Assembly: GCF_009708075.1 (NCBI RefSeq)
Contig: NZ_WMBT01000002.1
Coordinates: 248,001-312,000, forward strand
DNA from: Paracoccus lichenicola
GTDB taxonomy: Bacteria > Pseudomonadota > Alphaproteobacteria > Rhodobacterales > Rhodobacteraceae
Direction of reading: 5' to 3'
Length of the DNA stretch: 64,000 nucleotides
Shown: positions 38,230-48,725 of the stretch, piece by piece
Layout: each line of letters opens with the position of its first letter
Numbering within the stretch: position 1 is the first letter of the stretch
Translations under genes and position numbers: made by a program
The notes under the pieces: model-generated
Database searches by the model: none
What the model was told of the DNA's origin: nothing
What the model saw: the letters and a program-made list of their open reading frames with translations, nothing else

Positions 38230-38544
38230 ATGCCCAAAGAGGAATGGGGCACGAAACGCCTGTGCCCGCACTGCGCGACGCGGTTCTATGACCTGCGCGC
38301 CAATCCCATGACCTGCCCCGCCTGCGGGAACACGTTCACGCTGGAAAGCCTGACCGACAGCCGCGGCAAGACCCTTGTGACCGAAAAGGCCGTCGTCCGC
38401 GACGACGAGGATCTGGTCGATGAGGACGAGGATCTGGGCGACGATGCCGGCGATCTGGACGATGACCTGCTGGAGGAAGACGATGACGACGGCGACGTGT
38501 CGCTGGACGACATCGCCGATGTCGCCGAACCCGACGAAGACTGA
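38230..38544 (+). CDS. TIGR02300 family acidic zinc-ribbon protein
   Basis: 104-residue protein. A zinc ribbon (C12xxC15 and C29xxC32) surrounds the diagnostic RFYDLRANP, and the C-terminal 45 residues are almost entirely Asp/Glu. The family is nearly universal in alphaproteobacteria but has no known function; the acidic tail suggests mimicry of nucleic acid or binding to basic proteins. Followed 2 bases later by a strong terminator. Confidence 0.9.
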   Translation: MPKEEWGTKRLCPHCATRFYDLRANPMTCPACGNTFTLESLTDSRGKTLVTEKAVVRDDEDLVDEDEDLGDDAGDLDDDLLEEDDDDGDVSLDDIADVAEPDED

Positions 38545-38546
38545 GG

Positions 38547-38576
38547 AAAAAGGCCGGTCGCAGGACCGGCCTTTTT
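38547..38576 (+). terminator. Rho-independent terminator after the TIGR02300 gene
   Basis: 13-bp stem AAAAAGGCCGGTC (38547-38559) and GACCGGCCTTTTT (38564-38576) with loop GCAG and a terminal T-run. Confidence 0.9.
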
Positions 38577-38726
38577 CATGGCCCGCCACGCCTCGGGCAT
38601 CGCTTGCGCCGAAGGCGCGCGAACACCGGGCCAGGGCCGGTCCCGCTGCCGGGGCAACTTCCCTGTTGTCCGGCCAACTGCCCGGGGGGTATCAAGACCC
38701 GGGGGTTCGGGATGCGGAGAAAGCCG

Positions 38727-39784
38727 ATGGCCACAGCTTTTCACAAGGCGGCAGCCCTGTTCCTGGCCACCATCATGGCAGCGGCTCCGACCGCCGACGC
38801 CTGCACGCGCGCGGTCTATCTGGGACCCGAGGGGCGTGTCCTCACGGGCCGCAGCTTCGACTGGAGCGCGCCCATCACCAGCAACCTGTGGGTCTTCCCG
38901 CGCGGCATGGAACGGGACGGCCGGGCCGGGCCGCGCTCGGTCACATGGACCTCGCGCTATGGCAGCCTGGTCGTGTCGGGCTACGACATCTCGACCGTGG
39001 ACGGCATGAACGAGGCGGGGTTGGCAACCAACCTGCTGTGGCAGGTGGATACCGAATATCCGGGGGACGACGGCACGACCCCGCGCATGTCACTGTCGAT
39101 CTGGGCGCAATATTTCCTCGACAATTTCGCCACCGTGGCCGAGGCCGTGGATCACCTGCGCGCAAACCCCTTCGACGCCGTGACGGGCGAGGTTCCGGCC
39201 ATGCCCGGGCGGATGACGACGGTGCATCTGTTGCTGTCGGACGCCACTGGCGACAGCGCCATCCTGGAATGGATCGACGGCGAGCTGACGATCCACCACG
39301 GGCGCGACTATCGCGTGATGACCAACGAGCCGCGCTACGAGGAGCAGTTGGCCGTGCGCGCCTATTGGAACCGGGTGAACCCGCGCGACTTCCTGCCGGC
39401 ACCAGCCGGGCCACCGACCGCTTCGTGCGCGCCTCGTTCTATATCGACGCCGTGCAGCAGTCCTCTGACCCGCGCGTGGCCGCCGCCGCGACCATGAGCG
39501 TGATCCGCAACGCCTCGACCCCCTGGGGCATCAGCGTGCCGGGACAGCCCAACCTCGCCACCACCCGCTGGCGCGTCGTGGCGGACCAGACCGACCGGCT
39601 GTTCTATGCCGAGTCCGCCCTGTCGCCCAACGTGTTCTGGGTGGACCTGAAGCGGCTTGATTTTTCGGAAGGCGCACCGGCGATGAAGCTCGACCTCGGC
39701 GTGGACATGAGCCGCATCCTGTCGGGCGAGGTGTCGGGCCAGTTCGTGGCTGCCGATCCGTTCGCCTTTGAACCCGCCGAATAA
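38727..39784 (+). pseudogene. Linear amide C-N hydrolase (choloylglycine hydrolase family), frameshifted
   Basis: Exported Ntn hydrolase of the penicillin V acylase / bile-salt hydrolase family. The start codon 38727 is preceded by CGGAGAAA; a signal peptide (to ADA) leaves catalytic Cys as the first mature residue (C in ADACTRAVY), followed by GRSFDWS and a late NEAGLATNLLW block. The frame changes near 39395-39400: the first frame runs to a stop at 39497, while family-like sequence (TSRATDRFVRASFYIDAVQQ onwards) continues to 39784 in the frame one base back. One G seems missing from a GGG run. Real disruption or sequencing error; either way the intact product would be about 350 residues. 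Confidence 0.75.
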
Positions 39785-39864
39785 GGCGGGGAGGATGAGC
39801 GGGCAATCGCTGCCGCACATCCTTGTCCGGTAGCCCTGCCAACCACGCCGGATCGATCTGGAGC

Positions 39865-39893
39865 CATCCCGGCTGCAGCGCGCCGCCGGGATG
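39865..39893. terminator. Hairpin between convergent genes at the island border
   Basis: 9-bp inverted repeat CATCCCGGC (39865-39873) and GCCGGGATG (39885-39893), between the hydrolase pseudogene end and the stop of the giant minus-strand gene. No U-tract on either strand, so termination is tentative. Confidence 0.4.
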
Positions 39894-39914
39894 CATAAGG
39901 GGGAAAGGATCGGT

Positions 39915-42900
39915 TCACGCAGGTTGGTGAACGTCCGAAAGGTCGAAGGCCAGAATACGGGAGGCAGCGTCGCCCAAGCGGTCCTCGATGATCCCTTGCG
40001 CCGTGGAAAAGAAGAAGTCCTCATTCAGGACCAGCCTTTCGGCCGCCAGCCAAAGCTGCTGCGCCGATCCGCCCCATTTGGCGAACAGCACCTGCTTGCG
40101 GTCGTCCAAGGCGGAAAACTGGACCGCGCCGGTCGTGACGACAAGGCTGCCCCGGTCCAGTTCCGCCTCGCCGATCTGGATGGCCCCGCCGCCCTTGCGG
40201 GACGTTTCGGCGTCCAGCAGGACCAGCCGCTTGTCGGCGTCAGCCAGGCCGCGCAGCCCGTCCAGAACGGCGCGGATCGCCCGCAGCTTGTTCACGCCCG
40301 CCACGCCGGCCATGATGTCCATGGCCATGGCATCCAGCGTGGCCTTCAGATCCCTGGCCGTCGCCTGGCGCGTGATGGATCCGGTGATGGTCCATCCCGC
40401 GGCGGCAAGCGCGGCGTTGTAGGTTGTCCACCACGCCGTGCGATCCATCAGGCGATCTGCAGTTGCATCGGCGGCGCGTTGCGCAAATTGGGACGAATAC
40501 AGCACCGCCCGGCGCTGATCGGCCGTCAGGGCGTCGCCCAGTGCCATCACCTGGGCGCCATTCACGGCTGCAGTCGCCTGTTCCAGGTCACTGTCAAGCC
40601 TGTGGGTCCCGTCGCCGCGCGGGCGGCGGCTTTCGGGCATCGTGTCCGCGATCCGGCGCAACCGGGGGAGCGCGCGGTCGTCGCCTTGCGTTCCCGACGT
40701 GGAAAGAGAGCTTTTCGGCCAGTCCTGATTGACGCCGCGCGTGTCGACATGGGTAAAGCCGGCATAGCGCCCGATGCCGCCTCGGAAATCGCCTTCGTCG
40801 CGCATCCGGGCCAAGGCGTCCGCGACACGCGACGGCGCGATTCCGTCGGCGGTGATGTCGCAGGCGCGGAACTGCAGGTGCCAGGATTGCCCCGCCCCGT
40901 CGATCGCCTTGTTGTATTCGGGGGTGCGGTAGGCACTCGTGATGCGGATCGGCGCATCAAGCCGCGTCCGAAGCTTGTCGAGCACCTGCGCAGTGGGAAC
41001 GATGTTCGCCCACAGGGTTTCCGGCGGCGGCGCGTTCAGGCCGCGCTCCTTGCCGTTCCCGAAATGGGCCGATCCCAGGTACAGGAACTCCTCGGGGTCG
41101 AAATGGACGATGCCAAAGGGCTTCATGAAGTCGCGGAACCTGCTGACCACCGCGTCGGGCACGCTCAAGGCCCTGCCCTGGCTTCGGGCGGGGTGCAGCG
41201 CGGTTTCCGCAGCATCCTCGCCCTCGTCGGCCAGGGTCAGCGGATCGGCGTCCTCATCGCGGCCAGGCGTCCCGTCCTGGCCCGGTTCAGGCTCTCTTTC
41301 GGGATCGTCCGCCGCCGCATGGCCGCGGTCCTGGTCCGGGCCGTCCTCCGCCCCGGACCGCGGCACCGTGAAGGGCCGCTGCCTTGCGAAGGCCGGATCC
41401 CGGGGCTGAGGCGTGAACAAGCCCGGCGTCTGCGTTGTGCCCGCCAACTCCTCGGCCAGCTTGCGCTTCAGGGCGGTGTGGCTGCCGGTAAACGCGCCGC
41501 TGTCCCAGATGCGCAGCAGGGCGGCGGTGAAGGCGCCGTTCTGATCGCCGTCGGCGGCCTCCTGGTCGTCCTCGCAGGCGCTGAACTGGATCACGGTCGC
41601 GTCAAGGGGCGTGATGGCCGAGGCGAGGATCGCCCGGTCCACATGCGGCAGTTCGCGGGCGATGCGTTCGTAGAAATCGCGGTTCTGATCCTCGACCGCG
41701 GCGGCGACCGCGCGGGGCAGGTTGCGCGGGCGGATCGGCGCGGCGGCCTCCATCGCCAGGGGCATGAACCCCTTGCGGGCCATCGTGCCGGAATGGCAGC
41801 AGTCCGCCACAACCGTGACGCGCACCCCCTTCTGGAAGCCGGAGCACAGGTGCCAGAATTCGTCGTCGATCATCTGGCTGTCGAACAGGCACAGCGTGCT
41901 ATCCATCAGGCCCTTGGGGTTGGTCTTCTCGTCGCCGTTCATGTCGGTGATGCGCGATCCGTGGCCCGCGAAGGTGAACAGGAACTGGTCGCCTCCCTGC
42001 AGGTCGCGCGCGGCCCGGCGCATCCCTTCGATCACCGCCTCGCGAGTCGCGTCGGCCGTCAGCAGGATGTCGGCCTTGAAGCCTTCGGCGCGGGCCAGGC
42101 CGCGCATGGCGCGAGCGTCGTTCTCGCAGCCATACAGCTTGCCGTCGTTGCCGGCGTAATGGCGCGGATCGAGGGTGTTCAGGCCGACATGCAGGGAATA
42201 GGCGCGGTTCTGATGCCCCGCCCGCATGTGGGCGGTCTGCTGCAGGCTTTTCCAGGACGCGGACCGGGCGGGCTGCGGGCGGCGTGCGGTGATTTCCTTC
42301 ACCTTCGTCAGGACCAGGGACGCCACCTTGGCGAACCCCTTGTCAGTGGGGTGCAGTTCGTCGAACCAGTCGCCGTCGCCAACGCAGCCCCGGCAATCGA
42401 CATAGGCGACATGGTCCAGGCCCCGCGCCATGCGGCGCAATTCGCGGTTGAACTGGTCGATCATCTCGGCCGCGATGGCGCGCTGCAGGGCGCGGTCGAT
42501 GATGCCCTGTTCGGCCATGGGCTTGCCCAGCCAGCGGCCGTCAGGGATCACGTAGTCATAGCCGTGGACAACGACCGTGACGCCCGGGAAATGCCGGTTC
42601 ACGTCGCGGCAGATCCGTTCATAGGATGCGATAGCGTTGTCCATCACCGCCCGATAGCTGCGCCTGAGATAATCGGCGGGTTTCAGCGCCGGATCGAACC
42701 GTTCCAGGTGCCGGGCCAGGTTGCCGCCCGCGCAAACGTCGTTGCCGCCCGCCGACAGCAGCAGGATTTCGGCCTCGCTGCGCTTCAGGGCGTCGATGTA
42801 TTCGCGCTTGCGGGCCATGTTTTCCAGCAGGTCGCCCGCGGCCGAGGTGTCGAAGACGGCGTAATCCCGGGCCACATAGTCGATCACGTCGAACAAGCGC

Positions 42901-45176
42901 AACGGATACTGGAACCAGCTGTCGCCCTCGGACGCGATGCGCGGCCCGTCATAGCCGCTGCCGATACGCGCATCGTATTGCGACCGCCGCACCCACCGGG
43001 CGGCCGCATTGGCCGAATTGAGAGCCAGGGCCGAACGCGATCCGGGCGGCACCTGCACGGTGTCGGGATTGATGACCAGGACCGGAGAGAACGGCCCCGA
43101 TTTCTTCTCGTCCACCGTGAAGTACCGGCGCATCTCGTCGGGCGTCAGTTCGCCCGAATTGATGCGGTCCTGCAATTCCTTCAAGGTGATCTTCGGCGGA
43201 TATGCGGTGTCCATGGCATGCTCCTTCGGGATGGAGGGGGGCGGATCGGGCCGGTCGGCGCGGATGGGGCGGCCGGCGACGGCCTTGATGACCCAGTCTT
43301 CAAGACAGGGGTCGTCTTCCAGGTCTTGCTGGTCCAGGCGGTCGGTCCGCCGGGTTTCGTGGGGTTCCAGAAGGGGGTCGAGGGGCGCGCCGGGAAAGCT
43401 GCCCAGCATCGGGCGCAACCTGTTGCGGTCCCGTTCCAGGAACGACTGCGACACCAGCTGCAGGATCGACCGGCCATAGCCCGAGACCGTCAGCCGTCCC
43501 TCAAGCCCCTGCGACGGCACGAGGATGCGCGCCGCCCCGTCCCGGTCCCGCGCCATCGCGCGCGCCAGCGGCAGGATCCGCAGCCCGGCCTGGTCCAGCG
43601 GCACCGCCGGAAAGGTCAGGAACAGGCCTTGAAGCCCCGGCAGCCAGCCCAGGGGATTTTCGCGGTTTTCGTGCGTCTGGACCCGCTTCAGCAGCGCGTC
43701 CACGACCAAGGCACCGCTGCCGTTCGCAAGCAGGTGCAGCGCCTTGCCGTTATCGGCGCAGGCCTGCGCCAGGTCCAGGACGGCGTCGCCCAGCCGCCCC
43801 CGATCATCGACGCAGCCAGGTTCGTCCTGCCACAGTTCGCTATCGGGATCGCAGGGCATCGCCGCGCAATAGGCGTGGCGTTCGATGTCGCGCCAGAAGG
43901 CCCGGCCTGCGCCGCGGGCGGTTTCCTCGAACAGGGCGTCCAGGGATTTGGCGTCGCCTCCGGCCCGGTCGCGGCAGCGGGCGAAGATGTCGCTCAGCAC
44001 GGCCTGCATTTCGGCGGCAATGTTGGCCGACCAGAAGCAGGTCAGGAATTCCATGTCCAGCGTCGCGAAGGCGCTCTTCAGCCGGACGGCCCGGGCGAAG
44101 CCGCACGCCTCGCCCTCGAACACGCCGGGCAGGGCCACGACCACGCCGCGGCATTCCGCATCGTCGTGCAGGCGGTCCCAAATCCGCGCCACGGTCTCCC
44201 GCGCGGCAGGTTCTGGGGTGGCAAGCGGACCGGTCTGCTGCCAGCGTCCCGCGTCCAGGTTGAGGAAGTGCCCGCGAAGCATGCGTTGGGGAACGGTGCG
44301 CCGCGCGTCCCGGGATCGGTCGCGGCTCAGTCCCTGGTCGTCAGCGTTGATGGCAAGGGCTTCTTCTCCGGGGACGCCCAGCCGCAGCACCCATCCGTCC
44401 GCGATGGAACGCGCCCAGTCGGCATAGGGCAGGATCGCCAGGCCCTTGGCCGGGGTGGGCCTGCCGGGCACGGGAACCCCGCCCCAGCCGGACCCCCAAC
44501 TGTTCAGGACCAGAAACCCTTGTCTGTCGTACCCCACGATGACGAAGGCGTGCAGCGGTCGGCCTTCCTTGCCTTGCCCGTCGCGGATAACACCTTGCGG
44601 ATCGGGTTGGCGCCAGCCATCGTGAATCTCGGCCGTCGCCAGGACCGCGCCCGCCTCGACAATGGCGCAATGGTAATGATGCAGGATGGGTTGCAGCCGG
44701 CTGTATGCCCCCAGCGTGAACCGCGTGGCCGCATCCGCCTGTTTTCTTGAAAGCCATGATCTTTCCAAGTCGTCCTCTGGCCAGCCGCCTTCCCCGCTGT
44801 CCATGCAGGCGCCGTGGTGGAAAAAGGCCTTGATCGCCGAACGCAGGGTTCTGATGCCGGGATGTGCGTCGTTCCCCTTATGGTCCGGCATGTCGAAAAA
44901 GCGCGCCATCTGATACAGCATCGCGGCGCTAACATGACTCTCGGGGGGCGTCCCGCGAAGAATGGCCTGGATTTCGATCAATGCGGCAAGCGCGTGACCC
45001 ACGCATGTCCCATCTTTTTGCGTGCGGATCAGCCTGGCCAGGTTATCCTCGGCCAGCAGGCCGTCCCACGGTATATGCTCGACCGGCAAAAGCGCAGGGC
45101 GCGGCATATAGGAATAGTCACGAAGATCCGTGATATCCCGCTTGGCGCCAAACAACTCGGGAATCGAACCATTCAT
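39915..45176 (-). CDS. Giant multi-hydrolase: papain-like, SGNH, caspase-like and M15 peptidase domains
   Basis: 1753-residue protein with several catalytic modules. Residues 1-275: papain-like C1 fold with Q53/C58 (QKDGTCVGHA), H209 (PLHAFVIVGY) and N225 (NSWGSGWGG). 330-620: possible alpha/beta-hydrolase-like part with LLANGSGAL (S487). 740-965: SGNH hydrolase with S753 (EGDSWFQYP), N812 (AGGNDV) and D939/H942 (DELHP). 990-1260: caspase/metacaspase-like, H1072 (FAGHGSR) and C1127 (ADCCHSG). 1273-1330: acidic linker. 1345-1485: M15 zinc peptidase, H1433, D1440 (HLQFRACD) and H1476 (HVD). 1500-1753: unnamed C-terminal domain. No signal peptide or TM helix. ATG 45176 has AAGG eight bases upstream; TTG 45293 is less likely. 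Role unknown; domain calls are by motif. Confidence 0.85.
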   Translation of the reverse strand: MNGSIPELFGAKRDITDLRDYSYMPRPALLPVEHIPWDGLLAEDNLARLIRTQKDGTCVGHALAALIEIQAILRGTPPESHVSAAMLYQMARFFDMPDHKGNDAHPGIRTLRSAIKAFFHHGACMDSGEGGWPEDDLERSWLSRKQADAATRFTLGAYSRLQPILHHYHCAIVEAGAVLATAEIHDGWRQPDPQGVIRDGQGKEGRPLHAFVIVGYDRQGFLVLNSWGSGWGGVPVPGRPTPAKGLAILPYADWARSIADGWVLRLGVPGEEALAINADDQGLSRDRSRDARRTVPQRMLRGHFLNLDAGRWQQTGPLATPEPAARETVARIWDRLHDDAECRGVVVALPGVFEGEACGFARAVRLKSAFATLDMEFLTCFWSANIAAEMQAVLSDIFARCRDRAGGDAKSLDALFEETARGAGRAFWRDIERHAYCAAMPCDPDSELWQDEPGCVDDRGRLGDAVLDLAQACADNGKALHLLANGSGALVVDALLKRVQTHENRENPLGWLPGLQGLFLTFPAVPLDQAGLRILPLARAMARDRDGAARILVPSQGLEGRLTVSGYGRSILQLVSQSFLERDRNRLRPMLGSFPGAPLDPLLEPHETRRTDRLDQQDLEDDPCLEDWVIKAVAGRPIRADRPDPPPSIPKEHAMDTAYPPKITLKELQDRINSGELTPDEMRRYFTVDEKKSGPFSPVLVINPDTVQVPPGSRSALALNSANAAARWVRRSQYDARIGSGYDGPRIASEGDSWFQYPLRLFDVIDYVARDYAVFDTSAAGDLLENMARKREYIDALKRSEAEILLLSAGGNDVCAGGNLARHLERFDPALKPADYLRRSYRAVMDNAIASYERICRDVNRHFPGVTVVVHGYDYVIPDGRWLGKPMAEQGIIDRALQRAIAAEMIDQFNRELRRMARGLDHVAYVDCRGCVGDGDWFDELHPTDKGFAKVASLVLTKVKEITARRPQPARSASWKSLQQTAHMRAGHQNRAYSLHVGLNTLDPRHYAGNDGKLYGCENDARAMRGLARAEGFKADILLTADATREAVIEGMRRAARDLQGGDQFLFTFAGHGSRITDMNGDEKTNPKGLMDSTLCLFDSQMIDDEFWHLCSGFQKGVRVTVVADCCHSGTMARKGFMPLAMEAAAPIRPRNLPRAVAAAVEDQNRDFYERIARELPHVDRAILASAITPLDATVIQFSACEDDQEAADGDQNGAFTAALLRIWDSGAFTGSHTALKRKLAEELAGTTQTPGLFTPQPRDPAFARQRPFTVPRSGAEDGPDQDRGHAAADDPEREPEPGQDGTPGRDEDADPLTLADEGEDAAETALHPARSQGRALSVPDAVVSRFRDFMKPFGIVHFDPEEFLYLGSAHFGNGKERGLNAPPPETLWANIVPTAQVLDKLRTRLDAPIRITSAYRTPEYNKAIDGAGQSWHLQFRACDITADGIAPSRVADALARMRDEGDFRGGIGRYAGFTHVDTRGVNQDWPKSSLSTSGTQGDDRALPRLRRIADTMPESRRPRGDGTHRLDSDLEQATAAVNGAQVMALGDALTADQRRAVLYSSQFAQRAADATADRLMDRTAWWTTYNAALAAAGWTITGSITRQATARDLKATLDAMAMDIMAGVAGVNKLRAIRAVLDGLRGLADADKRLVLLDAETSRKGGGAIQIGEAELDRGSLVVTTGAVQFSALDDRKQVLFAKWGGSAQQLWLAAERLVLNEDFFFSTAQGIIEDRLGDAASRILAFDLSDVHQPA

Positions 45177-45510
45177 GAGCAAACCTTGAAACACACACCC
45201 GGCTTTGTCATCAGGCCGAAGACAGGAACGACAGCCAGATCGCCGAAATAAATGATGTGATGAACAGCATACGGAATCAGAAGATATTTTCAACGGTCAT
45301 CTGCATTTTGACATTCCTTAACAATCCTCGACCGTCTCCTTTCAACACGGAACACAGATGCAGCTTGAAACAACCATAAATAAATTATCAGCTTTACAGG
45401 CAGATGGACGGAACCACCGGGCGGCGCATATTCCGGAACGGCAGTGGTATTTTATTGATTGCCCTTGGAAGATATGATACCGTTAATCATCTTTAATCAG
45501 GAGTTTCAAG
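45177..45510. promoter_or_regulatory. AT-rich divergent control region of the island
   Basis: 334 bases between the giant gene and the secreted-peptide gene, markedly more AT-rich than its surroundings, as in acquired islands. Minus-strand promoter candidate: TTGAAA (45293-45288) with TATGCT (45271-45266), spacing 16. Plus-strand candidate: TATGAT at 45473-45478 (5/6) with only a weak -35 near 45450. Two in-frame mini-ORFs on the minus strand (45277-45306 and 45211-45270) are separated by one UGA. No regulator gene is present, so control may come from elsewhere. Confidence 0.55.
45211..45306 (-). other. Two in-frame leader mini-ORFs upstream of the giant gene
   Basis: ATG 45306, preceded by TAAGGA, opens a 9-codon ORF (MQMTVENIF) ended by TGA at 45277-45279. 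In the same frame ATG 45270 opens a second 19-codon ORF (45211-45270), a single hydrophobic helix starting MLFITSF. It could be a leader peptide or the remnant of a small membrane protein split by a stop codon. Evidence for translation is limited to the first Shine-Dalgarno. Confidence 0.25.
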
Positions 45511-45624
45511 ATGCGTGCCCTGACGATCCTGCTTGCCGGATGTCTTGTTCTCTTTTCGGCAATGTCGGCGCCGCAGCCGCTCCAGGCCGGCGCGCCGTGC
45601 GATCCCAACGTCCGAACCTGCTGA
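45511..45624 (+). CDS. 37-residue secreted peptide with two cysteines
   Basis: Small ORF with a strong Shine-Dalgarno AGGAG (45499-45503) seven bases before the ATG. Residues 1-26 form a signal peptide (hydrophobic core LLAGCLVLFSAM, cleavage favoured after LQA), leaving a predicted mature peptide GAPCDPNVRTC with Cys at 30 and 37 able to form a 6-residue loop. An LAGC lipobox at residues 8-11 is an alternative, but a long hydrophobic stretch after it argues against lipidation. It is 52 bases upstream of the membrane/SBP gene on the same strand, suggesting an operon. A signalling peptide or ligand for the neighbour's binding domain is conceivable. Unrecognised; small ORFs of this size can be spurious, though the SD supports translation. 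Confidence 0.6.
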   Translation: MRALTILLAGCLVLFSAMSAPQPLQAGAPCDPNVRTC

Positions 45625-45676
45625 CAGCCTATCCTGCTTTTATGGTTGGTCCTGATCCTTGACGCGGAGTCAGGGG

Positions 45677-48600
45677 ATGATGAATCTATTGGTTGAAATT
45701 TGGCCTGAAACCGTCCCGGATTCTCTTTGGAATTACAGCCGTTCGCTTCCGGGCGCGTTCAGCGACCAGGCCTTTCCCTTGACGAATTTCGACGTTAACG
45801 GCGAATTGCTGATGTATTTCCTGATCGGCCTCGTGGTCGTCTGGCTTTACGCCTGGAATCGCTTCAATCGCCGCAGTTACGAACCCGCGCCTTTCGATTA
45901 TAAGGTCTTGCGGGAATTGCAGCCTGCGCAGATGCGGGATTCGCTGCTGATGCAGCGGGCGTTTCTTCTTTACGCGCTTGTCCTGTCGCTTCTGTATGCC
46001 ACCTTCACCTTTTTCAGCGGCGTTATCCTGCGGATCGCGAAATACGTGCCGTCGATCGGGCCTATCGATCTTGACGCGCAGGCGCTTCAAAGCCCGCAAT
46101 GGCCCCTGATAATTGCCTTTGGCCTGGCCGGGCTGACGCAGTTGATCGGGCCGCTGGACCATCTGGAAAAGACCTTGCGTGGGCATATCCACCGATCCCT
46201 GGGCATCCCGATCCGTATCAAGGAATACACGCGCCTGCTGGTGGCGCACCAGCTGAGGGAACTGAACGCCGAGGCGGCGGAGCTGGCTGTTCCGACCGAT
46301 GCCGCGCCCAAGGACAGCGGCCCTGTAGAGAAAAATTTCCGAAACCTCTCCGGCCATGTCACGGGCCTGAAACCCTGGGCGCGAAACGAGATCGCCCAGA
46401 CCTATCAGGTCGAGGACGTGCTGGGCAAGCTGGTGGTGCTGTGGCGCATGATCGACAGCCTTTACAGCCCGCAATGGCCACGCGAAAGCGTGCGCGACGA
46501 AATGCGGCCGCTGATGTCGCGGCAACTGGCCGAAGCGCGGGCCGCCGCACGTTATCTGTCGGAACTGCTGGACACGCCGATGGCCGGCAAGGCCGAAACC
46601 GCTGCCTCGGGCGACGACGGGGGCGGATACGAATCAACGCAGTTCCGGACCCGCCAGGAACAGCAACTGGTCATCGCGATCGAAAGCATGGAGCGCCACT
46701 TGTACGAGATCGGGGCCATCAACGCGGTTTATGCCCAGCGGGATCGCGAATACAAGAACATGTCGAACGGCAGCTTGAAAGAGGCCGTCACGGCTGTCTT
46801 CAAGGCCGAGGATTACGGACCTTCGCTGCGCCAGCTTGCCTGCTGCGCGGCGGTTCTGTTCATCGGCTACATCGCGGCCATCAGCTTTCTCGACCACGGG
46901 CTGATGGCGTCGATGCCGCGCAACTTCTGGACCAAGGGCGTCAGCGCAGCATATGAGACGTTGCGCACGATGTGCATCTATGTGTTCCCGGTCCTGTTCG
47001 CCATATACGCGACCAGTCCGAACCCCGAACAGCCGCGCCCCCGCACCGCCATGGGCGTCGCGATGAGCGCGGCTTTGTGGGCGGGCTTCGCGAACCTGAT
47101 CCTGATGGCGCTGCTGGCCATGCTGTATACATGGCTCGTGGCGCGCGACAGCGACCATTTCAACCAGCTTCTGCTGGGCCGTCTCAACACGGATGCAAGC
47201 TTTCCGCCGTTCCTGTGGTGGTTCATGTCGGCGGCCCCGTTCTCGGCCTTCGTTGCCGCTTGCGTCGTGATGGCGCGGCGGGTGCGCCCGAATGCGGGGC
47301 ATGGCCTGACGATGGGCCTGGTCGCGGTCCTGGCCGCCGTTCTCGCGGCCCTGCACGGATCGTTGTTCGGATCGGGTTTCCCCGCCTGCTTCGACCCCGA
47401 TCAAACGATCACGGTCGTGTCGGACCCGCCCGCCTGCTGGAAGAACGTGGTCGATGGCGTGGCCAACAATCTCATCGACGCCGTGGCGGCCCTCGTGTCG
47501 ATCCTGTTCCTGATGCAGACAACAGGCTCGGGCCGGGTCGCGGCGGAAAAGCCGGATGAGAAGCCGAAGAAAAAGTCGGATGAAAAGTCATCCGACCTGT
47601 CAGGGCCGCCCGCCGGTTCCGAAACGGCCACGATTATTCTTACGGCCATTCTGATGCTGGCTTTGATGTCCTGGACGCAGGCGCAGGCGCAAGAACAGGA
47701 CCACTCCAGACGCGTCGTGCTGGGGATGCGAGAGGACGCGGCCCCCTTCGCCTATCGCGATCCCCCCAGCACCGGCCGCCATCAGGGTTATCTTGCCGAT
47801 CTCTGCTACGAGATTTTCGCGGGGTCGCAAGATTATGATGTCGTCACGAAGACCATCACGATACGCGACCGCTTCGAACGCCTGCGTCCCGGCAAAGTTG
47901 GCGCAAGCCCGGACGATCTGGTGGACATCGTCTGCGATCCCGTGACCGTACGGTATGACGATCCCCAGCGGACGCAGAACGCCATCTTCTCGCCCATCGT
48001 GTTCGCGACAGGCGTGACCTATCTGAAGCGGAAAAACGCCCGTACGGATCTGGACATAGAAATCGCCTATGTCGACGGGACCACGGCGAAAACCGTCGTT
48101 CTGGACATCTGCCGCGACGTGTCGGCAAGAACGGCCGAGGAATGCCGGGACGGCGGAAGCACCCCTTCAGACGCATCGCCTGACCCCTTGGAAGCCACCG
48201 AACCGCCAGACGGGAAAAACTGGTTCCTGCGCCTCGGGAACAGGATTTCCGCACGCCTTCGAAATGCTGATGATCGCGACAGGACATTCACGTATTACGG
48301 AATGAAAAGCCATGAACAGCTGGCCAGGTGGTTTTGCAGGGACAACCCAAGGGTCCAGAAATTCTACATCGGCGACCGCGATGTGATATGGACGAAATGG
48401 AACCGGGCGCGGGCGCGCAGCGGCGGCTGCGATGCCGAGGCTACGTCGCAACTGTTCACCTACGAGCCTTACGCCCTGATGATCACCAAGGACAGGCCGG
48501 ACCTCGTGCAGTTCGTGCAGCGCCGCATTTACGAGATCTTCTCGGACGCCAGCAAGGCGCGGGCGATCTTTTCGGCGACGTTCCCGGCTTCGCAGATGTC

Positions 48601-48694
48601 CACGTCGCTAGCCTATCTTTTCCTGCTGAACGGGGTGGATGAGGATTACATGCCCCGCTACCCCGACGGCAGCCCTGTCCCCTTGCGGCCATAG
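45677..48694 (+). CDS. Polytopic membrane protein with C-terminal solute-binding (SBP3-like) domain
   Basis: 1005-residue protein. About ten hydrophobic helices are seen: near 45-60, 95-117, 141-160, 388-405, 430-446, 459-486, 513-533, 543-562, 596-614 and 651-668. A cytoplasmic-looking region of about 225 residues (162-387) sits between helices 3 and 4. After a lysine-rich linker (622-640) and the last helix ending in AQAQ, residues 678-985 form a periplasmic solute-binding (PBP type 2) domain: RRVVLGMREDAAPFAYRD, GYLADLCYEIFAG, LVDIVCDPVTVRYDD and FSPIVFATGVTYL match SBP-3 (amino-acid or ionotropic receptor) folds. No ABC or channel motif is seen. Start ATG 45677 has GGAG upstream. Role as a ligand sensor for the divergent hydrolase is inference. 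Confidence 0.8.
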   Translation: MMNLLVEIWPETVPDSLWNYSRSLPGAFSDQAFPLTNFDVNGELLMYFLIGLVVVWLYAWNRFNRRSYEPAPFDYKVLRELQPAQMRDSLLMQRAFLLYALVLSLLYATFTFFSGVILRIAKYVPSIGPIDLDAQALQSPQWPLIIAFGLAGLTQLIGPLDHLEKTLRGHIHRSLGIPIRIKEYTRLLVAHQLRELNAEAAELAVPTDAAPKDSGPVEKNFRNLSGHVTGLKPWARNEIAQTYQVEDVLGKLVVLWRMIDSLYSPQWPRESVRDEMRPLMSRQLAEARAAARYLSELLDTPMAGKAETAASGDDGGGYESTQFRTRQEQQLVIAIESMERHLYEIGAINAVYAQRDREYKNMSNGSLKEAVTAVFKAEDYGPSLRQLACCAAVLFIGYIAAISFLDHGLMASMPRNFWTKGVSAAYETLRTMCIYVFPVLFAIYATSPNPEQPRPRTAMGVAMSAALWAGFANLILMALLAMLYTWLVARDSDHFNQLLLGRLNTDASFPPFLWWFMSAAPFSAFVAACVVMARRVRPNAGHGLTMGLVAVLAAVLAALHGSLFGSGFPACFDPDQTITVVSDPPACWKNVVDGVANNLIDAVAALVSILFLMQTTGSGRVAAEKPDEKPKKKSDEKSSDLSGPPAGSETATIILTAILMLALMSWTQAQAQEQDHSRRVVLGMREDAAPFAYRDPPSTGRHQGYLADLCYEIFAGSQDYDVVTKTITIRDRFERLRPGKVGASPDDLVDIVCDPVTVRYDDPQRTQNAIFSPIVFATGVTYLKRKNARTDLDIEIAYVDGTTAKTVVLDICRDVSARTAEECRDGGSTPSDASPDPLEATEPPDGKNWFLRLGNRISARLRNADDRDRTFTYYGMKSHEQLARWFCRDNPRVQKFYIGDRDVIWTKWNRARARSGGCDAEATSQLFTYEPYALMITKDRPDLVQFVQRRIYEIFSDASKARAIFSATFPASQMSTSLAYLFLLNGVDEDYMPRYPDGSPVPLRP

Positions 48695-48725
48695 CTTCCC
48701 GACCAAGTCTTGGCGAACGGCCGGT

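Follow-up and report, generated by a model that had tools for sequence, protein, structure and literature searches.

The window analysed here is a 64,000-nucleotide stretch of the genome of the alphaproteobacterium Paracoccus lichenicola (assembly GCF_009708075.1, contig NZ_WMBT01000002.1, positions 248,001 to 312,000), and all coordinates below count from its first letter. On its minus strand an uninterrupted open reading frame (ORF) runs from a start at 45176 to 39915 and encodes a protein of 1753 amino acids (aa). A preliminary description, made from the letters alone, had recognized this single ORF, with no strand given, and had read it as four hydrolase domains with intact catalytic sets; every residue that it named is correct and invariant in the alignments described below. 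The coding sequence (39915..45176; all parts of the protein lie on the minus strand) joins two genes that are separate in relatives, gene A supplying aa 1-654 and gene B supplying aa 655-1753; a second Paracoccus genome (G410) has them fused as well.

Gene A begins with a papain-like C1 protease domain (aa 11-270; 44367..45146), in which C58, H209, N225 and the oxyanion-hole glutamine Q53 are invariant in 31/31 rows of an alignment. The residue alignments used throughout comprise the window protein with 30 of 37 gene A sequences or 36 of 48 gene B sequences; the sequences omitted were near-duplicates together with some others. AlphaFold (AF2) models were made for each half of the protein (mean pLDDT 80.7 and 74.5), and in these the closest solved fold to the predicted structure of aa 11-268 is xylellain, a C1 protease of Xylella fastidiosa (PDB 3ois; Z 24.5 and root-mean-square deviation (rmsd) 2.2 over 225 residues), with cathepsins at Z of about 20. 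Xylellain was solved as a lone protease, and we know of no fused pseudo-hydrolase or partner gene for it. Gene B starts with an SGNH module that includes an N-terminal extension of about 80 aa (aa 655-975; 42252..43214), with S753, N812, D939 and H942 invariant in 37/37 rows. In SGNH enzymes the catalytic serine belongs to block I, the asparagine to block III, and the aspartate and histidine to block V; in a 26-row alignment of the module the serine, asparagine and histidine are invariant and the aspartate nearly so. The module matches Pfam GDSL_2 (aa 777-949; 43.9 bits, cut-off 32.9), and the predicted fold of aa 742-964 resembles that of EstL5 (PDB 8ik1; Z 19.6, rmsd 2.4, 190 residues). It is followed by a caspase/metacaspase domain (aa 990-1273; 41358..42209; Pfam C14 over aa 1006-1256 at 67.9 bits, cut-off 21.4), in which H1072 and C1127 are invariant in 37/37 rows and whose predicted fold is like that of the metacaspase-like GSU0716 of Geobacter sulfurreducens (PDB 3bij; Z 38.2, rmsd 2.1, 263 residues, 40% identity). 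The PADLOC caspase model also matches the 1753-aa protein (E 1.3e-12). The fourth domain is an M15_3 zinc peptidase (aa 1346-1490; 40707..41141; Pfam over aa 1385-1478 at 64.3 bits, cut-off 23.2), with H1433, D1440 and H1476 invariant in all 21 rows that possess it.

The Pfam and structural comparisons that the preliminary description had proposed thus recover C14, M15_3 and GDSL_2 above their cut-offs, while Pfam C1 (PF00112) stays under its gathering score in this protein (12.5 versus 20.7 bits; a relative in locus L049 passes with 36.6 bits); the C1, SGNH and caspase folds are present in the models, and M15 is assigned from the Pfam score and the zinc ligands, the fold-match lists shown being taken up by the caspase and SGNH domains. 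Two narrower assignments were rejected, namely EACC1-associated caspase (NF047832; 24.8 bits against an NCBIfam cut-off of 140) and MepK (NF053624; 25.7 against 185).

The remainder of gene A (aa ~300-640; 43257..44279) had been described as possibly alpha/beta-hydrolase-like. In the predicted secondary structure its strands, turns and helices do follow the alpha/beta-hydrolase order, but the expected nucleophile at position 486, assigned as the elbow residue by motif and not by coordinates, is missing in 31/31 rows (glycine in 29, alanine and arginine in one each). Position 487 is alanine in 29/31 rows and serine in the window protein and L106, such that the elbow motif E-G-A-G of most relatives reads N-G-S-G in the window protein, with its serine one place off. 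The region is therefore probably a catalytically dead enzyme. A profile comparison with PDB sequences gave 0 matches for it, and the fold-match list for this half was taken up by the C1 domain. At the other end of the protein, a helical plus beta domain (aa 1506-1753; 39918..40661) was delineated from the AF2 secondary structure and has no assigned family: the Pfam match to Hydro_N_hd is below threshold (16.5 bits, cut-off 27), and no fold match for it appears in the lists, which other domains filled.

The caspase and M15 domains are joined by an acidic linker that ends in an arginine-containing boundary (aa 1323-1342; 41151..41210), with arginine in 25/25 proteins, which is a candidate processing site. 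When the protein is compared with a remnant copy in a sister species (G461), the ratio of nonsynonymous to synonymous substitution (dN/dS) is 0.99 in this linker, i.e. neutral, against 0.11 and 0.17 in the flanking caspase and M15 domains and 0.22 in the C-terminal domain; the nearby core genes guaB and ALAD give 0.06 and 0.10 in the same comparison. By this measure the caspase, M15 and C-terminal domains are constrained, though less than guaB and ALAD. The conservation of the catalytic residues and the dN/dS values therefore rule out decay of the ORF, as the intact catalytic sets had already been taken to indicate.

Fusion of a conserved gene pair

In relatives gene A, encoding the C1 protease and the pseudo-hydrolase, directly precedes gene B, which encodes SGNH-caspase in some loci and SGNH-caspase-M15 in others, where the C-terminal domain may be present or missing. 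The two genes are separate in 36/36 named-genome loci that hold both, e.g. on a plasmid psymA of S. meliloti, which carries them under the annotations 'C1 family peptidase' and 'caspase family protein'. Two of the genomes whose loci were examined, those of P. lichenicola and G410, showed the fused form; the product in the latter has 1804 aa, is 51% identical over aa 10-1746 and lacks an internal stop. A sequencing error or frameshift joining two genes, a possibility that the preliminary description had itself raised, is rejected because the same fusion is open in this second Paracoccus species at 51% identity. As judged from these comparisons, the ORF is a natural fusion of an existing gene pair, and the simplest account would be that a stop codon was lost before these Paracoccus species diverged. 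The domain order had been thought to belong to no described family; indeed neither this order nor the pairing of C1 with SGNH-caspase was found described in the open-access literature (titles and starts of abstracts), but the order is not unique, being that of a conserved gene pair and of the fusion in G410.

The junction retains AAGGAG, which resembles a ribosome-binding site (43221..43226, minus strand; AAGGAC at the same place in G410 and in the unfused Paracoccus locus L100), followed by an ATG that encodes M655 (43212..43214, minus strand), a possible internal start that matches the gene B start of unfused relatives. As both are kept, gene B may still give rise to a product of its own. 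The same features would suit an explanation that we consider improbable, in which the fusion is a stop-loss accident, gene B is translated from its own start, and both enzymes act as in unfused relatives, in ordinary protein and wall turnover. The nine unfused junctions compared are also in line with it, the genes lying 12-40 bases apart in six and overlapping in three. Against this, the fused frame is open in two species whose proteins share 51% identity, a divergence that an unselected accident would rarely survive, and the catalytic domains are under selection. The pair in a further Paracoccus (sp. DMF-8; L069/L106) looks degraded, with a short gene A of 503 aa and two stops within the match to gene B.

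The SGNH-centred family in other genomes

An alignment of 26 SGNH-module sequences was used to scan GTDB genomes, with the best 80 loci kept, and SGNH relatives proved to be encoded in at least 506 of 589 candidate GTDB stretches. Architectures were counted with our own profiles rather than Pfam in the 91 loci, the window included, for which an SGNH protein was called; 15 duplicate or repeat loci were left out, 6 of 97 rows had no called SGNH gene, and the 91 that remain include close relatives. Gene calls beyond the annotated records came from a simple codon-usage script. The caspase types comprise SGNH-caspase (28 loci), SGNH-caspase-M15-C-terminal domain (19), SGNH-caspase-M15 (4) and the full fusion (2). 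A further 21 loci are of trypsin types, namely SGNH-trypsin (6), SGNH-trypsin-EEP nuclease (6), SGNH-tail-trypsin (2), SGNH-trypsin-NucA (3), trypsin-SGNH (3) and trypsin-NucA-SGNH (1). Three loci encode SGNH-Amidase_3-M15, each beside a trypsin-nuclease gene, and 14 show no recognised protease, with the SGNH domain followed by a tail (5) or standing alone (9). A caspase or trypsin is thus part of the SGNH chain in 74/91 loci.

The C1 gene is tied to particular architectures. In the named set it lies within three genes of the SGNH-caspase-M15 gene in 23/23 loci and within three genes of the SGNH-caspase gene in 13/25 (two of the 12 misses being at contig edges), and it is found at this distance in 0/29 other loci. 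One of the 25 SGNH-caspase loci, L131, is trypsin-NucA-SGNH by the architecture count and was probably misfiled. Outside the named set, L041, L045 and L072 combine an SGNH-trypsin gene with a haem-peroxidase gene and a C1 gene. A gene belonging to one sequence cluster (animal-type haem peroxidase by Pfam in L037) was also observed within five genes of the SGNH gene in nine loci (L038, L041, L045, L047, L072, L096, which is equivalent to L037, L102, L107 and L142), in several of them between the SGNH and C1 genes.

Pfam families of operon neighbours (108 of 113) were set against those of non-operon genes (91 of 113 sampled from 451 other genes), some at stretch ends having been dropped. The operon neighbours include Trypsin_2 (9), An_peroxidase (6), Amidase_3, M15_3 and PG_binding_1 (3 each), and S8, C14, CHAP and EAD1 (2 each), and none of these families is among the 25 listed, of 161, for the control. 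Trypsin-NucA and FGE-caspase genes are not wholly missing from the control, which has at least one of each (in L044 and L049, respectively), but their numbers are too low for them to appear among the families listed. Within the families listed for the two sets, trypsin, haem peroxidase, amidase, M15, peptidoglycan-binding and CHAP domains are commoner in operon neighbours than in non-operon genes. Other partners include GH19 (L065), GH25-NlpC (L108) and CHAP (L049) proteins. In L040/L125 the SGNH gene sits beside EAD1-trypsin, STAND and trypsin-NucA genes, in L140 beside trypsin and STAND genes, and in L044 and L128 beside a trypsin gene, L044 having a trypsin-NucA gene as well. The caspase-less SGNH relatives in L040/L125, L044, L128 and L140 could be lytic effectors of EAD1/STAND/trypsin systems. 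In 12 loci, mostly of Aliiroseovarius (e.g. L084:12454-13509), the SGNH gene is adjoined on the same strand by another recurrent neighbour, whose product of about 350 aa contains six hydrophobic stretches and matches no Pfam family.

Public annotation of the family is inconsistent, ranging over 'caspase family protein', 'N-acetylmuramoyl-L-alanine amidase' and 'hypothetical protein', and no published description of an SGNH-centred modular family was found in the titles and abstract starts of the open-access literature. The conserved modular set behind the ORF is more surprising than the single protein.

Neighborhood and origin of the locus

The preliminary picture was incomplete in that the C-terminal domain (aa ~1506-1753) and a divergent neighbouring gene also belong to the locus. 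The latter lies head to head with the fused hydrolase gene on the plus strand (45659..48694 as the longest frame, with a start possibly at 45779; 971-1011 aa), and its product combines about eight hydrophobic stretches with a family-3 solute-binding domain (SBP_bac_3; 47717..48550, plus strand; 29.6 bits), which makes it a candidate sensor. The same membrane/solute-binding fusion stands beside unfused genes A and B in P. aerius (L067/L114). On plasmid p420573 of P. seriniphilus the membrane and binding-protein genes are separate and are followed by an SGNH-amidase-M15 gene and a serine protease gene; separate genes for the two proteins were likewise noted in L050, L051, L046, L073 and L100.

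Both divergent genes lie in a block of about 10.2 kb between the FYDLN_acid gene and guaB (IMPDH) (38545..48725), which is absent or different in related genomes by the matches to its flanking genes. The FYDLN_acid and guaB matches are 0.2-1.8 kb apart in five of eight Paracoccus stretches, versus 10.2 kb here, and in the other three the FYDLN_acid match is absent from the DNA span compared. In the sister species G461 the copy at this site is truncated to aa 948-1753 (93% identity; L066:6988-10805) and adjoins two small genes of 118 and 195 aa; the membrane/solute-binding gene was not found there. The small-gene duo looks like a toxin-antitoxin pair. The FYDLN_acid-guaB interval looks, in Paracoccus, like an insertion site with varying cargo. 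The window also holds a choloylglycine-hydrolase-like gene (CBAH; 38727-39497, plus strand) that is seemingly frameshifted near residue 226 and continued in the 38420-39784 frame. Matches to seven relatives stop at residue 225-226 although the open frames of these relatives comprise 350-747 aa, and the C-terminal part that is missing can be read in another frame.

Any match to the protein was found in 28/125 genomes of the genus and 37/394 of the family, its own genome included. Among the 44 window genes longer than 200 codons, the divergent gene (z -3.7) and the fused hydrolase gene (z -1.6) are the two lowest in GC content at third codon positions (GC3). The patchy spread, the low GC3 and the empty site point, tentatively, to horizontal acquisition of the fused hydrolase gene. 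As regards a phage origin, a scan of viral contigs gave five weak relatives (26-28% identity, SGNH part only), and among the phage-record matches listed (20 of 242) only the M15 or caspase part was matched.

Relation to known systems and predicted function

The nearest printed precedents found are a metacaspase of Chitinophaga pinensis that is combined with Amidase_2 and Lipase_GDSL domains and is described as 'a highly destructive weapon', and the presence of an amidase domain in a G. sulfurreducens metacaspase operon (Asplund-Samuelsson 2012, PMC3501461). The metacaspases covered there differ from the window protein in that no C1 protease with M15, SGNH-centred family or such gene pair figures in the text available, and the term M15 is absent from the main text. 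No paper on a metacaspase together with an SGNH hydrolase was found in the open-access literature. Nuclease-protease pairs and caspase-nuclease (canu) loci share the principle of a protease unmasking a partner enzyme, and a caspase version exists; the partner in these is an MBL-type nuclease, whereas the window protein has lipase-type and wall-peptidase-type domains (PMC12799240). System 3 of Kaur et al. 2020 (PMC7159879), found mostly in alphaproteobacteria, couples peptidases to effectors through NucA-trypsin and EAD1 components, and it is approached by the SGNH relatives that adjoin trypsin-NucA, EAD1-trypsin and STAND genes (L040/L125) or trypsin-NucA and trypsin genes (L044); the words GDSL, lipase and SGNH have 0 occurrences as word starts in that paper. 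Such gene sets also resemble LypABC, a CARD-NLR-like system that includes trypsin and trypsin-endonuclease proteins and drives lysis of Caulobacter for release of gene transfer agents, with proteases needed for the lysis and the lytic effector unidentified (PMC13236601). In the window protein and 11 neighbouring window genes there is no Pfam match to NucA, trypsin, EAD1 or STAND, and in the 12 window genes scanned none to a CARD-like adaptor or NLR ATPase, a CARD fold not having been sought by structure. Because the defining parts of CARD-NLR systems and System 3 were not found at the locus, the hydrolase set is filed among bacterial protease-driven conflict or death systems, outside both.

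The preliminary description had seen no signal peptide, and hydropathy analysis agrees: a hydrophobic stretch within the first 60 residues occurs in 0/55 C1 and 0/105 SGNH proteins (duplicate loci included), the window protein has no stretch above 1.5, and 12 companion proteins (nine wall hydrolases, a chitosanase, a transpeptidase and a peroxidase) have no hydrophobic stretch anywhere. All parts are thus predicted to be cytosolic. Lipid- and wall-cutting enzyme types kept inside the cell together with proteases suggest regulated self-lysis, and the reading that we favor, while giving it somewhat less than an even chance, is that the ORF encodes a horizontally acquired, cytosolic, protease-gated self-lysis module. 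Under it the fused protein would be held inactive in the cytosol until a protease step switches it on, whereupon it would burst the producing cell. A signal, in P. lichenicola perhaps relayed via the divergent membrane/solute-binding gene, would activate the C1 protease and/or the caspase; cleavage at arginine-containing linkers would free the SGNH and M15 parts; the SGNH enzyme would damage membrane lipids, giving the M15 peptidase access to the peptidoglycan and ending in lysis. The order would accordingly be C1 or caspase, followed by the lipase and last by the wall peptidase. Metacaspases generally cleave after arginine or lysine. One from wheat is described as arginine/lysine-specific (PMC3881575). 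Given this specificity and the arginine stretch at the end of the linker, self-processing at the boundary is plausible. Infection would be the most likely trigger, given that EAD1/STAND conflict loci harbour some of the relatives.

Several observations weigh against this reading. In the 25 proteins arginine accounts for 57 of 500 residues at the caspase-M15 boundary versus 53 of 1118 in the remaining linker, which 0/5000 shuffles reach, but the stretch tested was picked after viewing the sequences and the 25 rows are related, so that the shuffle result is overstated. No protease is present in the SGNH chain of 17/91 loci. EAD1 or STAND was detected by our own profiles in just 2/91 loci, Pfam finds EAD1 in only 2/108 operon neighbours, and PADLOC matches few of these neighbours, with one or two members for each of 11 families; as such matches are few, the defence link is thin. 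Membrane/solute-binding genes occur within five genes in just 13/91 loci, none of them beside the fused copy of G410, and are therefore a recurring, not constant, partner. The ribosome-binding-like site retained within the fused ORF means that the halves may act apart. Finally, we found neither an activity nor a cleavage, lysis or phage phenotype for any family member.

Another reading, which we regard as doubtful, would make the locus one of an undescribed class of bacterial death systems free of an NLR-type ATPase: a membrane protein with periplasmic ligand binding would pass a signal to a polyprotein in the cytosol, the C1 protease and caspase would process this polyprotein to release the lipase and the peptidoglycan peptidase, and membrane and wall would be dismantled in one step. 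Also unlikely is regulated autolysis or developmental lysis unrelated to infection, e.g. for release of gene transfer agents, DNA or vesicles. LypABC offers a precedent for this in Caulobacter (PMC13236601), and SGNH relatives adjoin trypsin-NucA genes, whereas the patchy distribution and the empty site are more in keeping with an accessory than with a housekeeping trait. It is similarly unlikely that the set is directed outward, leaving the producer by some route or through lysis of some cells in order to digest rivals. Proteases, lipases, wall hydrolases and nucleases are typical weapons, the companions include chitosanase, GH19 and GH25 proteins, and L050 has, at a distance of 5.5 kb from its caspase gene, a gene annotated as a Rap1a/Tai immunity protein; set against these are the missing hydrophobic N-termini and the observation that, in the clusters of at least three loci, small genes recur next to the SGNH gene only within sets of close relatives. 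A type VI secretion effector in particular is not supported, the sheath gene (PF05591) being without a match in the window's own genome and absent from 11 of the 13 genomes searched, with G355 and G342 as the two that have it.

If the self-lysis reading is true, bacterial caspase-like and papain-like proteases would be linked directly, within a single polypeptide, to lytic effectors, which would provide a simple, testable model of proteolytic cell death without an NLR switch. The analysis also outlines a broad SGNH-centred family, with at least 506 relatives, beneath the inconsistent public annotation, and its members are candidate lytic effectors for LypABC-type systems, whose effector is reported to be unidentified (PMC13236601).

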